Below, one piece after another: positions 9,471 to 25,707 of a DNA stretch of 64,000 nt. Position 1 is the stretch's first letter, and every line of letters starts with the position of its first letter. Under the pieces are notes generated by a model. That model saw nothing but the letters and a program-made list of their open reading frames with translations. It was not told the origin of the DNA and searched no databases. The position numbers and the translations under genes were made by a program. Source of the DNA: Methylophilus medardicus (GTDB lineage: Bacteria > Pseudomonadota > Gammaproteobacteria > Burkholderiales > Methylophilaceae); assembly GCF_006363955.1 (NCBI RefSeq), contig NZ_CP040948.1, forward strand, positions 930,001 to 994,000, written 5' to 3'.

Positions 9471-9751
9471 ATCGCTCCCAGCGGATCTGTCTTGGATTGT
9501 TGTCTAGGGTTTCATCCTGTTAGCGCACGTGCTACCAAGGCGGCTGGCAGTCGACAGGATCATTGACCCAAACGGGTCATTGAGACCCTTTTACATCCTG
9601 CGTATTCTAGCCACATCACAAGGACGCAACGATATTCAGGTGCATAAATCTTAACATTCTTTTGCTGGGATTTTTGCGGTTGATGTTGGTCAGTATCTTG
9701 GATGCTGATGTGTGATTGTGTTGTGTTTTCAAGTTTAAAGTCTCTTTATAG

Positions 9752-9776
9752 CCCCGCCTACGCGGGGTTTTTCTTT
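9752..9776 (+). terminator. Orphan Rho-independent terminator
   Basis: CCCCGC (9752-9757), loop CTAC, GCGGGG (9762-9767), then a T-rich run on the plus strand only. No plus-strand gene lies upstream: the nearest upstream gene is on the minus strand and starts at 9470. The hairpin therefore ends either a small RNA or transcription from an unmapped promoter in 9471-9750. Confidence 0.7.
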
Positions 9777-9824: not shown

Positions 9825-9842
9825 CCGTCACATAAGCTTCAT
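9825..9842 (+). promoter_or_regulatory. Putative Pho box upstream of PEP-CTERM/phoA
   Basis: CCGTCAC, spacer ATAA, GCTTCAT. Against the PhoB half-site consensus CTGTCAT/C with a 4-bp spacer, the first half matches 6/7 and the second 4/7. It lies about 120 bp before the PEP-CTERM gene that precedes alkaline phosphatase. A very similar site (TTGTCAT-AAAA-GCTTCAT) occurs at 25300. PhoB control is inferred. Confidence 0.5.
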
Positions 9843-9962
9843 GCCGGAGAAAACTTTCTGACATACAGTTCTTCAACAATACTCAAGGTAACACAGCGTT
9901 TAGGCACGGTGTTTGAACGCAGTAAGCAATATGGTCAGTGACTATCAGAGAGGATTTACAAA

Positions 9963-10709
9963 ATGAAACTTAAACCTTGGCTAATGGCCGGTTTGCTGAG
10001 CAGCACAGCCATGCTGTCGCCTGCCCAAGCGGCAGAATTGATTCAAAATGGCGGCTTTGAATCGCAAGGCGTCGACGCTTATGACATCACCGGTTGGCAG
10101 GTGGCGGAGCAGGGAGTCGCGGGCAGTGTATTAGCACAGAGCGGCACGGTGACAGAATTCACGGCGAGCACGACCGTGGGGGCTTATGCCGGTAACTATT
10201 ACGGTTTGTTGGACAACTATGGCTTGGCATCGAATGTGCTGTATCAATCGTTTAGTACTGCGGCTGTCAGTCAGGCCACCTTGTCTTTCCAGATGTTTAT
10301 CAATAACCAAAACGCCAGCACCGACATTGATGCCGCTGGCCTCGATTATAGCGTCGACGCGACAGACCATCCCAACCAGCATGTGCGCGTAGATGTGCTT
10401 AAAGCCGGCGCGGATCCATTTTCTGTGAACAGCGCCGATGTGCTGCAAACCTTATATCTAGGTGGTGCGAATGGCAATCTGACAGCAAATAATTATATTA
10501 ACTATCAGTTCGACTTGTCTTCAAGCTTGGCCAGTGGTGGCAGCTTTGTGTTGCGCTTTGCCACGGTTGCTAATCAGAACGCATTGCAACTCGGTATTGA
10601 TAATGTCAGCCTGCAAAGTGTATCCGCAGTGCCTGAGGCTGACACCAATGCCCTGATGCTGGCGGGCTTGGGAATCATTGCCGCCGTGATCCGCCGTCGC
10701 TATTCATAA
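9963..10709 (+). CDS. PEP-CTERM sorting-domain exoprotein
   Basis: A 248-residue secreted protein with a signal peptide (1-23, cut after AQA). The body begins ELIQNGGFESQ, the opening typical of carbohydrate-binding-like PEP-CTERM proteins with an ELIxNGGFE start, and is rich in Asn, Ser and beta-strand patterns. The C-terminus is a PEP-CTERM anchor: VPEADTNALMLAGLGIIAAV plus RRRYS. Exosortase/archaeosortase enzymes process such tails and place the protein outside the cell. The exosortase itself is not in this window, but EpsA (17886-18665) belongs to the same system. It lies 34 bp before phoA and shares its candidate Pho box, so it may be a phosphate-starvation exoprotein. Confidence 0.88.
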   Translation: MKLKPWLMAGLLSSTAMLSPAQAAELIQNGGFESQGVDAYDITGWQVAEQGVAGSVLAQSGTVTEFTASTTVGAYAGNYYGLLDNYGLASNVLYQSFSTAAVSQATLSFQMFINNQNASTDIDAAGLDYSVDATDHPNQHVRVDVLKAGADPFSVNSADVLQTLYLGGANGNLTANNYINYQFDLSSSLASGGSFVLRFATVANQNALQLGIDNVSLQSVSAVPEADTNALMLAGLGIIAAVIRRRYS

Positions 10710-10743
10710 ATTACAATATCAAAAGCTTATAAAGGAAATGACC

Positions 10744-12282
10744 ATGCAATTATTTAACTTGAAACGCACCACGATGGCCGTCATGTTGTTGGGCTCACAA
10801 CTGCTGACTGGCATGGTGCACGCTGAAGATGCACAGTTCTGGCTCAACGATGGCGCAGCCAGCCTGAATGACAGCAAAAAACTGGTGCCAAATGCTAAAA
10901 AAGCCAAAAACGTGATTTTGTTCGTGGGCGATGGCATGGGGATTTCTACCGTCACTGGCGCGCGCATTTTTGAAGGTCAACTCAAAGGCATTGATGGCGA
11001 GCGTCATAAGCTGTCGTTTGAGTCATTTCCCTATGTGGCTTTGTCCAAGACTTACTCTACCAACCAGCAAACGGCTGACTCGGCACCGACCATGACAGCG
11101 ATGATTGCTGGGGTTAAAACCAACGACGGTATCTTATCGCTGAACCAATCTGTGGCGCGTAATGAGGCGAATCCTGCGGTGTTGAATGCCAATAAAGTCA
11201 CCACCTTATTAGAGCAAGCGGAGCAGTCAGGTAAATCGACGGGCGTGGTGTCTACCGCGCGGATCACCCACGCGACGCCAGCCGCGACCTATGCCCATAT
11301 TTCCAATCGTGATTGGGAAGCCAATGCGAACTTATCCGCGGCGGCCGCCAGCAATGGCGTGAAGGATATTGCGGCACAGATGATTGATAACTTTGGTAAC
11401 GGCAAAATCGGTGATGGCATTGATGTGGTTTTCGGCGGTGGTCGTAGCTATTTTCTGCCAAACAGCATCACGGATATCGAAGGCACCAAAGGTCGCCGTA
11501 CCGATGGTCGCAACCTGACGCAAGAATACGTCAGCAAGTTTGGTGGTGTGTACATTGAGAACCAGAATGCATTTAATGCGCTCAATCCGGTCACCACCAA
11601 TAAAGTGCTGGGTCTGTTCAATCCTTCTCACATGGAATATGAACAAGACCGTCCAAACGACATTGCCGGTGAACCTTCCTTAGCGGAGATGACGGGCAAA
11701 GCGATTGATATCTTGAAGAAAAACCAGAATGGTTATTTTCTGATGGTGGAGGGTGGTCGTATCGATCATGCTTCGCATGCGGGTAACGCCTATCGTACTT
11801 TTAAGGATACGGTTGCTTTGTCTGATGCAGTGCGCGAGGCGGCTTCTAAGGTGAACTTGAACGATACGCTGATTATCGTGACAGCAGACCATAGCCATAC
11901 CTTGACCATCGGTGGTTATCCAAAACGTGGCAACCCGATTCTGGGTAAAGTCGTCGAGCCAGGCAAAACAACCCCTACTTTGGCAGCCGATGGCAAGCCT
12001 TACACCACAGTGAGCTTTGCCAACGGCCCTGGATATCATACTAACTCTCCTGGCGATGCGGTATACAGTGAGGCGATTGCTGCTGGACGTGTTGTGGATA
12101 TGTCTGCGGTAGATACCGAAGACCCGGATTTCCATCAAGAAGCGTTGGTGCCTTTGAGTTCAGAGACCCACGCGGGTGAAGAGGTCGCAATCTACGCGAT
12201 CGGCCCTAAAGCCTATCTGGTGCATGGCGTGCAGGAACAAAGCTACATTTATCAAGTCATGAAAGATGCTTTTGGTTTTTAA
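10744..12282 (+). CDS. phoA: Alkaline phosphatase (PhoA superfamily), exported
   Basis: A 512-residue enzyme that releases phosphate from phosphomonoesters in the periplasm. A signal peptide (1-27, cut near VHA) precedes the metal-binding motif VGDGMG (Asp near 63), the nucleophile motif TADSAPTMTAM (Ser near 113), the MVEGGRIDHASHAG metal site and the TADHSHTL and ETHAGEEV histidine ligands. The GGRIDHASHAGN form resembles the eukaryotic/Vibrio-type subgroup. AAAGGA at 10731-10736 sits 7 bp before the ATG at 10744, so I prefer it to the ATG at 10738. Cotranscription with the PEP-CTERM gene is likely (34-bp gap). Confidence 0.93.
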   Translation: MQLFNLKRTTMAVMLLGSQLLTGMVHAEDAQFWLNDGAASLNDSKKLVPNAKKAKNVILFVGDGMGISTVTGARIFEGQLKGIDGERHKLSFESFPYVALSKTYSTNQQTADSAPTMTAMIAGVKTNDGILSLNQSVARNEANPAVLNANKVTTLLEQAEQSGKSTGVVSTARITHATPAATYAHISNRDWEANANLSAAAASNGVKDIAAQMIDNFGNGKIGDGIDVVFGGGRSYFLPNSITDIEGTKGRRTDGRNLTQEYVSKFGGVYIENQNAFNALNPVTTNKVLGLFNPSHMEYEQDRPNDIAGEPSLAEMTGKAIDILKKNQNGYFLMVEGGRIDHASHAGNAYRTFKDTVALSDAVREAASKVNLNDTLIIVTADHSHTLTIGGYPKRGNPILGKVVEPGKTTPTLAADGKPYTTVSFANGPGYHTNSPGDAVYSEAIAAGRVVDMSAVDTEDPDFHQEALVPLSSETHAGEEVAIYAIGPKAYLVHGVQEQSYIYQVMKDAFGF

Positions 12283-12314
12283 GTTGCGCGAAGCGCTGAA
12301 ATAAGATGTGATTG

Positions 12315-12336
12315 CAGGGCAGCCTTGGCTGCCCTG
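12315..12336 (+). other. Perfect 10-bp stem-loop after phoA
   Basis: CAGGGCAGCC (12315-12324), TT, GGCTGCCCTG (12327-12336). No T-run follows (ATCCCTTTGAG), so it looks more like an mRNA-stabilising or attenuating hairpin than a clean terminator. It lies in the 80-bp gap between phoA and the next gene. Confidence 0.6.
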
Positions 12337-12362
12337 ATCCCTTTGAGTTGAATGGAAACAAA

Positions 12363-13112
12363 ATGAAATTTAAACAAATGGCTTTGGGCCTCGCGCTTTC
12401 CTTAAGCTGGCTAAGCGGTGATGCGCTGGCGGACGCGTTAGTCAACGCCCGTTATGAGACGGTGCAGTGTGCCTCCCCTTGTCGCGCGGAAGAGGCAAAG
12501 CGTGTGCAGTGGTGGTTGATGCGTGAAGCCGATCAGGTAGAAATACGCACTTTGTATCAAAATGGCGAGCCGGCACATCACAGCAGTTTGTGGCTGAAAA
12601 AACCAGCGGGACAGTTTAATTATGTTTACCTCATGCACGGTGAGCGGCGTGCGATTGATTACGCCGATGTCGATTTGAAGTTGCTGAATATCAAAACAGA
12701 TCCTCAGTTTTGGCAAATGAAATCCCAGTTGGTGACAGACAGCGAACTGGCCAGCCTGCAGCCAGTGCCTGCGGCATCTAGTAGCGCCTATGGCTACCCG
12801 GTAGAAAAGTATATCGGCACACTGGGCAATGGGATTCAGAGCGAAGTCTGGTGGATTCCAGCATTAAAATTACCTTTGAAAGTGGCCTACACCTACCCAA
12901 ATCATACCGTGAGCATTCAGTTGCAGTCGCTGCAACCTGCACTACAATCGACCCAGCCGATCGAAATCGCGCCGGCGACGTCACTGGCAGCGCTCAGCGC
13001 TTACCAGCATGTGGATTATGCGGATTTGGGCGATATGGAGCATAACCCCTCAGAGATGCAATGGCTGGCCAAAGCGCATGGCGCGCCAGGTTTGCATGCC
13101 CATACCCACTAA
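12363..13112 (+). CDS. Exported protein of unknown function, downstream of phoA
   Basis: A 249-residue protein. A clear signal peptide (1-24, cut after ALA) is followed by a mature part with paired cysteines (VQCASPCRAEEA) that could form a disulfide or bind metal. The central beta-rich part ends with GIQSEVWWIPALKLPLKV, a pattern seen in DUF4412/LolA-like folds, though I do not recognise a family. The tail is His-rich (HGAPGLHAHTH) and might bind metal. I chose the ATG at 12363; an in-frame ATG at 12312 would put 17 residues before the signal. It follows phoA by 80 bp and may belong to its unit, possibly as a zinc or phosphate accessory protein. That role is a guess from position. Confidence 0.75.
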   Translation: MKFKQMALGLALSLSWLSGDALADALVNARYETVQCASPCRAEEAKRVQWWLMREADQVEIRTLYQNGEPAHHSSLWLKKPAGQFNYVYLMHGERRAIDYADVDLKLLNIKTDPQFWQMKSQLVTDSELASLQPVPAASSSAYGYPVEKYIGTLGNGIQSEVWWIPALKLPLKVAYTYPNHTVSIQLQSLQPALQSTQPIEIAPATSLAALSAYQHVDYADLGDMEHNPSEMQWLAKAHGAPGLHAHTH

Positions 13113-25299: not shown

Positions 25300-25317
25300 T
25301 TGTCATAAAAGCTTCAT
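25300..25317 (+). promoter_or_regulatory. Putative Pho box, plus orientation
   Basis: TTGTCAT, spacer AAAA, GCTTCAT. The first half matches the Pho consensus 6/7 and the second 4/7. It shares GCTTCATGC with the site before the PEP-CTERM/phoA genes and lies about 105 bp before the small lipoprotein gene. Confidence 0.45.
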
Positions 25318-25374
25318 GCAACTAATGCTTAAAATTGACTGCCGAAATAACGTCAATAAACGAATCACATCTTT

Positions 25375-25392
25375 ATGACAGCGGAATGACAG
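25375..25392 (-). promoter_or_regulatory. Putative Pho box, minus orientation, perfect half-sites
   Basis: Read on the minus strand this is CTGTCAT, spacer TCCG, CTGTCAT: two perfect 7-mers with the standard 4-bp spacer. It lies only 30 bp before the plus-strand lipoprotein ATG but points toward the minus-strand small gene (start 25138), so which gene it serves is open. Confidence 0.6.
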
Positions 25393-25422
25393 TCCCTCAC
25401 CGTTGCTGCAGGAGCCAAAATA

Positions 25423-25707
25423 ATGAAAAAAACGATTTCTGTTTTAGCCTTGATCGTCTCTGCTTGTGCCAGCGTCACCCCACAGCCTTACACGACCCAG
25501 CAGGGCAAGCTGGGCTATACACTGAGTTGCAGTGAATTCAATACTAGCCAGCAACAGTGCCAAGCCAAGGCGGGTGCGATGTGTGCAGCGGGGTACGTGG
25601 TGGATACGCAACGTAGCAGTCATGAGACCTTCCCGGATAGCGGAGATGGCATCTATCGGCCCGCTAACAATCATCTTGCGGTGATATGTAAAGATACGCC
25701 CCACTAG
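25423..25707 (+). CDS. Small putative lipoprotein
   Basis: A 94-residue protein with a lipoprotein signal: MKKTISVLALIVSAC with lipobox VSAC and the modified Cys at 15. The mature part has four more cysteines (LSCSEFNTSQQQCQAKAGAMC, CKDTPH), arranged as a likely two-disulfide fold. CQAKAGAMCAAGYVV recalls small outer-membrane lipoproteins of unknown role. It precedes the hpnE gene convergently by 13 bp. Nearby Pho-box-like sites suggest, but do not prove, phosphate-starvation control. Confidence 0.7.
   Translation: MKKTISVLALIVSACASVTPQPYTTQQGKLGYTLSCSEFNTSQQQCQAKAGAMCAAGYVVDTQRSSHETFPDSGDGIYRPANNHLAVICKDTPH

Follow-up and report, generated by a model that had tools for sequence, protein, structure and literature searches.

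A PEP-CTERM protein, an alkaline phosphatase and an unnamed phoA companion behind a Pho-box-like promoter in Methylophilus

Here we describe a three-gene set in a 64,000-nucleotide stretch (C1:930001–994000; hereafter the window, in whose positions coordinates are given) of the 2.60-Mb genome of the methanol-eating bacterium Methylophilus medardicus. The set comprises co-directional genes that lie in succession on the + strand: P1 (248 amino acids; 9963–10709), which encodes an exported protein with a C-terminal PEP-CTERM sorting signal; phoA (514 amino acids; 10738–12282), which encodes an alkaline phosphatase; and P3 (249 amino acids; 12363–13112), which encodes a further exported protein. 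A first-pass annotation of this DNA had proposed a phosphate-scavenging set in which a matrix-anchored protein accompanies the phosphatase. The set is indeed conserved together with its exosortase-type protein, and its Pho-box-like promoter is conserved within the genus. However, the constant partner of phoA across the class is P3; P1 has been added in Methylophilaceae and in a small number of other Burkholderiales. The annotation overlooked the standing of the third gene as an unnamed companion of phoA throughout the class. We propose that the locus is a PhoB-controlled phosphate-scavenging operon in which P1 would hold the phosphatase at the surface or in the matrix and P3 would help PhoA to mature, a reading that we hold with about equal belief and doubt.

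Conservation of the P1–phoA–P3 set

Conservation was assessed in a family sample of 150 Methylophilaceae genomes and an order sample of 399 genomes. The family sample contains 24 full-length P1 homologues (50–100% identity), 29 P3 genes and about 43 phoA genes of this type; PEP-CTERM matches covering only the last part of P1 were left out of the P1 count. Every one of the 24 full-length P1 genes ends approximately 10–110 bp upstream of a phoA, and P3 is present in all 24 clusters. The pair, whose absence outside this genome the annotation had named as grounds for giving up its proposal, is therefore conserved beyond it. In M. medardicus, the gap between P1 and phoA is 34 bp to the alternative start codon (ATG, 10744), as first annotated, and 28 bp to the ATG at 10738. 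The flanks of the trio vary by genus: CHASE2 and rmuC in Methylophilus, GTPase and UvrD genes in Methylobacillus, DNA polymerase I and diguanylate cyclase genes in another genus, and sugar transferase genes in yet another (g22). The trio is also found in another Burkholderiales family (L153/L193, L192 and L194) and at two loci of metagenome-assembled genomes, L155 being from one labelled Gammaproteobacteria.

The gene set, its order and its conservation are thus real, and the adjacency is no accident. The P1+P3 label can be fitted to a phoA tree with 9 changes, far below the mean of 21.5 in shuffles, and both genes have been lost more than once; P3 is spread over deep branches and P1 is patchier. 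The patchiness of P1 might suggest that chance or general synteny placed the three genes side by side, but the 24/24 adjacency amid changing flanks and the recurrence in a second family refute that explanation for Methylophilaceae, and we consider it extremely improbable.

P3 lies behind phoA in 28 of 29 family loci. It occurs at 19 places in 18 of the 399 genomes of the order sample, and 18 of these places are directly behind phoA. A broader profile found P3 in 15 further genomes of the class, with phoA upstream in all 12 cases in which the contig extends far enough and the gene is whole. At the class level, P3 usually adjoins phoA without P1. In two genomes (G170 and G153; loci L329 and L330), tandem phoA genes of a second clade are followed by a diverged P3 relative (E ~1e-6). 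The L329 protein carries, in place of the His tail, an internal His/Asp-rich run (HDEPGDKHDH).

The phosphatase and its companion P3

PhoA matches PF00245 (E 7e-129) and contains the catalytic motifs DGMG, DSA, NRDW, EGGRID, TADHSH and SSETH, as judged by residue alignment to PDB entry 4kjd. It is nearer to the vertebrate-type enzymes, with which it shares a clade, than to that of Escherichia coli (4kjd, E 1e-111; 1ani, E 7.5e-37), and it carries no lipobox. PhoA is a textbook secreted enzyme and is not known to need more than general folding help in the periplasm.

P3 has the features first ascribed to it: a signal peptide, a CxxxC pair (C36-x3-C40) and a His-rich tail, HGAPGLHAHTH. In relatives, the His tail is kept widely (a few homologues, in L187 and L329, have no clear form of it), whereas CxxxC is only a lineage feature, kept in Methylophilaceae groups g1, g7, g11 and g22 and in one further family (G512), and not elsewhere. 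The C-terminal segment (13014–13109) comprises an acidic motif (DYADLGDMEHNP) and the His-rich end. This combination, with the motif in the form D-x-x-D-x-G-D-x-E-x-D/N-P, is common to P3 homologues throughout the class; among 25 divergent homologues, D221 and G223 are invariant, and D218, D224 and E226 are each conserved in at least 90%. Between phoA and P3 lies a hairpin (12315–12336; GGGCAGCC-loop-GGCTGCCC type) that is strong in nearly all clusters, where the sequence has changed and the pairing has been kept, with a U-run in several lineages. It may serve to keep the level of P3 below that of PhoA.

By sequence, P3 matched no family in Pfam and NCBIfam up to E 1, the LolA and RseB families included, and no PDB entry up to E 5; in an Azotobacter plasmid record, one P3 match beside a phoA fragment is named 'hypothetical protein'. 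The AlphaFold2 model of P3 (predicted local distance difference test (pLDDT) 85.7) has LolA and RseB as its top Foldseek matches (E 4e-7 to 1e-5), and VIA alignments give Z scores of 7–9.9 with LolA, LolB, RseB/MucB, VioE and ependymin-like folds. Sequence identity to the LolA-type matches is 5–14%. P3 may share the half-barrel fold of LolA, LolB and RseB (MucB), which its model matches with middling scores, and it is exported as they are, but it differs from them in matching no family by sequence, in its additional acidic motif and His-rich end, and in its partner, which is phoA and not lol or rpoE. Because a LolA-type fold is here predicted together with a metal-ligand-like tail, we suggest that P3 aids the folding or the metal uptake of PhoA.

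Two narrower roles can be weighed against these features. P3 might be a loading factor for a metal (zinc, magnesium or calcium) and not a general folding aid. PhoA-type enzymes require zinc and magnesium, the acidic motif and His-rich C terminus are kept class-wide, adjacency to phoA is strict, and the diverged relative behind the tandem phoA has its own HDEPGDKHDH run; these points are offset by the homologues that have no clear His tail and by the phoA genes of the clade that do without P3 (15 of 33, see below), and we regard dedicated metal loading as a tentative possibility. P3 might otherwise be a LolA-type carrier of lipid or lipoprotein, delivering PhoA or a lipid substrate, for example, with no relation to metals. 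LolA, RseB and LolB are among its best fold matches, but LolA-like folds serve many functions, the matches fall below Z 10 at the low identities given above, and PhoA here is without a lipobox, so that we consider a carrier role improbable.

P1 and the exosortase system

The functions of PEP-CTERM proteins are mostly unknown. P1 combines the features of an exosortase substrate, namely a signal peptide, a PEP motif, a transmembrane stretch and a basic cluster. Its tail (VPEADTNALMLAGLGIIAAVIRRRYS) narrowly passes the Pfam PEP-CTERM model (PF07589; residues 222–246; 10626–10700) at 21.2 bits against a cut-off of 20.7 bits, and this motif is the only Pfam match in the protein. An exosortase (TIGR02602) is encoded in the same genome at C1:1334132–1334854 (136.5 bits; cut-off 105.55). 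The AlphaFold2 model of P1 (mean pLDDT 83) matches carbohydrate-binding modules (CBMs) and MAM domains of the CBM4/16/22/MAM jelly-roll type in Foldseek and VIA-align, with best Z scores of 14.2 to a porphyran-binding module and 13.8 to CBM4-2. CBM sequence models in Pfam did not match P1 up to E 1, and the likeness is at the level of the fold only. For P1 we thus predict a jelly roll of the CBM4/MAM type that ends in an exosortase tail. It shares its predicted fold with CBM4/16/22/61 and MAM modules, including NGGFE...DN(V)S ends of the kind typical of such modules; it differs from the CBMs in that the fold rides on a PEP-CTERM protein and not on a glycosidase.

PepA of Aquincola tertiaricarbonis, a PEP-CTERM protein shown to keep exopolysaccharide on cells (PMC9850573), is like P1 in its signal peptide, PEP motif, hydrophobic stretch, basic end and an exosortase in the genome. 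By this analogy, P1 likely shares a surface or exopolysaccharide role. PepA, however, is RpoN-dependent and tied to floc formation, whereas P1 lies behind a Pho-box-like promoter beside a phosphatase, with no significant sigma-54 site. A term search of the main text of the PepA report found no mention of alkaline phosphatase (PMC9850573), and our literature search found no paper joining PEP-CTERM with phosphate limitation, or with phosphate starvation and alkaline phosphatase. P1 could be a matrix protein that retains exopolysaccharide, as PepA does in floc formers, and that is merely co-induced as phosphate starvation alters the cell surface. The predicted CBM-type fold would suit this explanation, as would the g22 cluster, behind which lie sugar transferase genes and a further PEP-CTERM gene. 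Most cluster neighbours, however, are not polysaccharide genes, P1 is linked to phoA almost without exception in Methylophilaceae, and PEP-CTERM sequences also occur next to, or fused to, other phosphatases; we consider a matrix role alone unlikely.

These other pairings are of several kinds. In five genomes of the family, from three genera (L133, L134, L135, L314 and L315), an alkaline phosphatase of about 665–695 amino acids has a PEP-CTERM protein directly behind it, which is unrelated to P1 outside the tail. For the large phosphatases of other Burkholderiales families, no separate adjoining PEP-CTERM gene was found. In one Methylophilus (L104:9965–14076), genes for a PF04185 phosphoesterase, a PEP-CTERM protein and a di-haem cytochrome peroxidase are inserted beside the trio. 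One alkaline phosphatase (L313:2761–4518, − strand) has a C-terminal PEP-CTERM motif of its own, and a similar one is present in L345. Several apparent PEP tails picked up by regular expression, among them those of a UvrD helicase and a GTPase, were false. The independent pairings support surface placement of phosphatases, which would proceed through the exosortase system.

Promoter anatomy and predicted PhoB control

The site CCGTCAC-ATAA-GCTTCAT, found exactly as first annotated (Pho box 1; 9825–9842, + strand), lies within the one strongly conserved block in an alignment of the upstream regions of 13 Methylophilus clusters. It is followed on the same strand, in a 22-bp register, by a second box (GAGAAAA-CTTT-CTGACAT; 9847–9864), of which the first half is weak and the second conserved, and, 10 bp further on, by a −10 element (AACAAT, or AAGAAT in relatives; 9875–9880) at the spacing seen in the phoB and pstS promoters. 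This arrangement, with four half-sites in 11-bp phase and a −10 element 10 bp beyond the last, is present in 12 of the 13 clusters. By half-site score, the first box alone is modest, being equalled or exceeded at 11 places in the window (itself counted), whereas the composite of four phased half-sites and −10 element (9825–9880) ranks first in the window, with no other place at its score. In 10 of the 13 clusters, none of 300 shuffles outscored the composite (p=0.003), a value that serves as a guide because the half-site matrices were set by hand after known Pho boxes. Even in the most diverged promoter (L104), in which box 2 reads CCGTAAC-CTGT-CTGACAC, each of the four half-sites is good.

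The promoters of phoB (TTGTCAT-TAAA-ATGTCAT) and pstS (TTGTCAC-ATTT-CTGTCAT) in the same genome each have one box with a −10 element after 10 bp. The genome encodes PhoB elsewhere (355 bits, above the curated cut-off), as well as pstSCAB. A genome search with a strict E. coli-like pattern (up to 3 mismatches) did not pick up the promoter of the trio; it is the relaxed half-site model together with conservation that reveals it. Pho boxes at promoter spacing and a PhoB in the genome point to membership of the Pho regulon, clearly so only in Methylophilus, and on these signals the phosphate reading of the locus appears well founded. As in phoA-type Pho regulon genes of E. coli, an exported PF00245 phosphatase is encoded behind tandem 7-4-7 boxes with a −10 element ten bases on; unlike there, the enzyme is of the vertebrate type, P3 lies downstream and an exosortase-type protein upstream. 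Sigma-54 control, known for other PEP-CTERM genes, was rejected for P1: the best upstream match (9902) has 2 mismatches, about 20% of random windows contain a match as good, and the position falls where the sequence varies.

In the proposed mechanism, PhoB would bind the tandem boxes (9825–9864) when phosphate is short and start transcription of P1, phoA and P3. P1, once exported, would be cleaved and anchored through the exosortase system, its carbohydrate-binding-like jelly roll sitting in surface polysaccharide, where it could keep the soluble, anchor-less phosphatase, a polymer-bound substrate or both near the cell. PhoA would free phosphate from monoesters, and P3, made at a lower level owing to the hairpin, would act as a periplasmic accessory that helps PhoA to fold or to acquire metal ions.

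Several observations weigh against this mechanism. The third half-site is weak in most clusters, and the regions upstream of P1 in other genera, Methylobacillus among them, yielded no conserved Pho box of this kind. P1 has been lost in several lineages that keep phoA and P3 (L119, L120 and class-level loci), and it is thus not essential to the phosphatase. One P1 (G093) has lost its PEP-CTERM tail; distant P1 homologues (36–41% identity) adjoin other genes, such as that of a glucose/sorbosone dehydrogenase; and in one f29 genome (G177; L344:3709–4620) a P1 homologue is found apart from phoA, its neighbour being a sulfatase gene that belongs to the alkaline phosphatase superfamily. The order sample holds 33 phoA genes of the vertebrate-type clade, of which 18 have P3 and 15 do not. 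The best match of P3 (Z 9.9; root mean squared deviation 4.2 over 142 residues) is a middling one (Z below 10), at the level of the fold.

PhoA, a classic enzyme, may therefore have dedicated, undescribed partners. In its fullest form, put forward with considerable reserve, our proposal is that P3 represents a family, so far undescribed, of maturation factors dedicated to alkaline phosphatases, with a LolA fold and a metal-binding tail, accompanying vertebrate-type PhoA across Gammaproteobacteria, and that in Methylophilaceae P1 tethers the phosphatase to an exosortase-built matrix, all under PhoB. An unnamed phoA neighbour conserved across a whole class would turn PhoA maturation into an open question, and one that is easy to test. 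If confirmed, a phosphate-controlled exosortase substrate next to a phosphatase would tie PEP-CTERM proteins to phosphorus nutrition for the first time, and it would account for how an enzyme secreted by bacteria in flocs or on leaves stays close to the cell.

Other Pho-box-like sites were seen. Strong ones lie at 25300 (TTGTCATAAAAGCTTCAT) and, on the minus strand, at about 25375–25392 (CTGTCATTCCGCTGTCAT), before a 94-amino-acid lipoprotein-like open reading frame (25423–25707; whole region 25300–25707), which is likely a further PhoB target, judging from these sites. A few kilobases from pstSCAB, a divergent promoter with GTCAT/TTCAT half-sites at 11-bp steps (L243:6975–7084; C1:887974–888083) separates an exported-protein gene from a glycosyltransferase-like gene; these are possibly Pho-controlled lipid remodelling genes. 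Upstream of the trio, window positions 9580–9775 form a separate short transcription unit with a promoter-like site, ended by an intrinsic terminator (9750–9769, + strand; stem-loop and T-run) that is kept in the Methylophilus alignment. In several Methylophilus, this unit encodes a hydrophobic peptide of 25–28 amino acids (for example, MITRLNLNILLFGFLLLFIIGIVDAFV); the peptide was not found intact in some relatives, and in M. medardicus the position of its start codon (9632) carries ATA.

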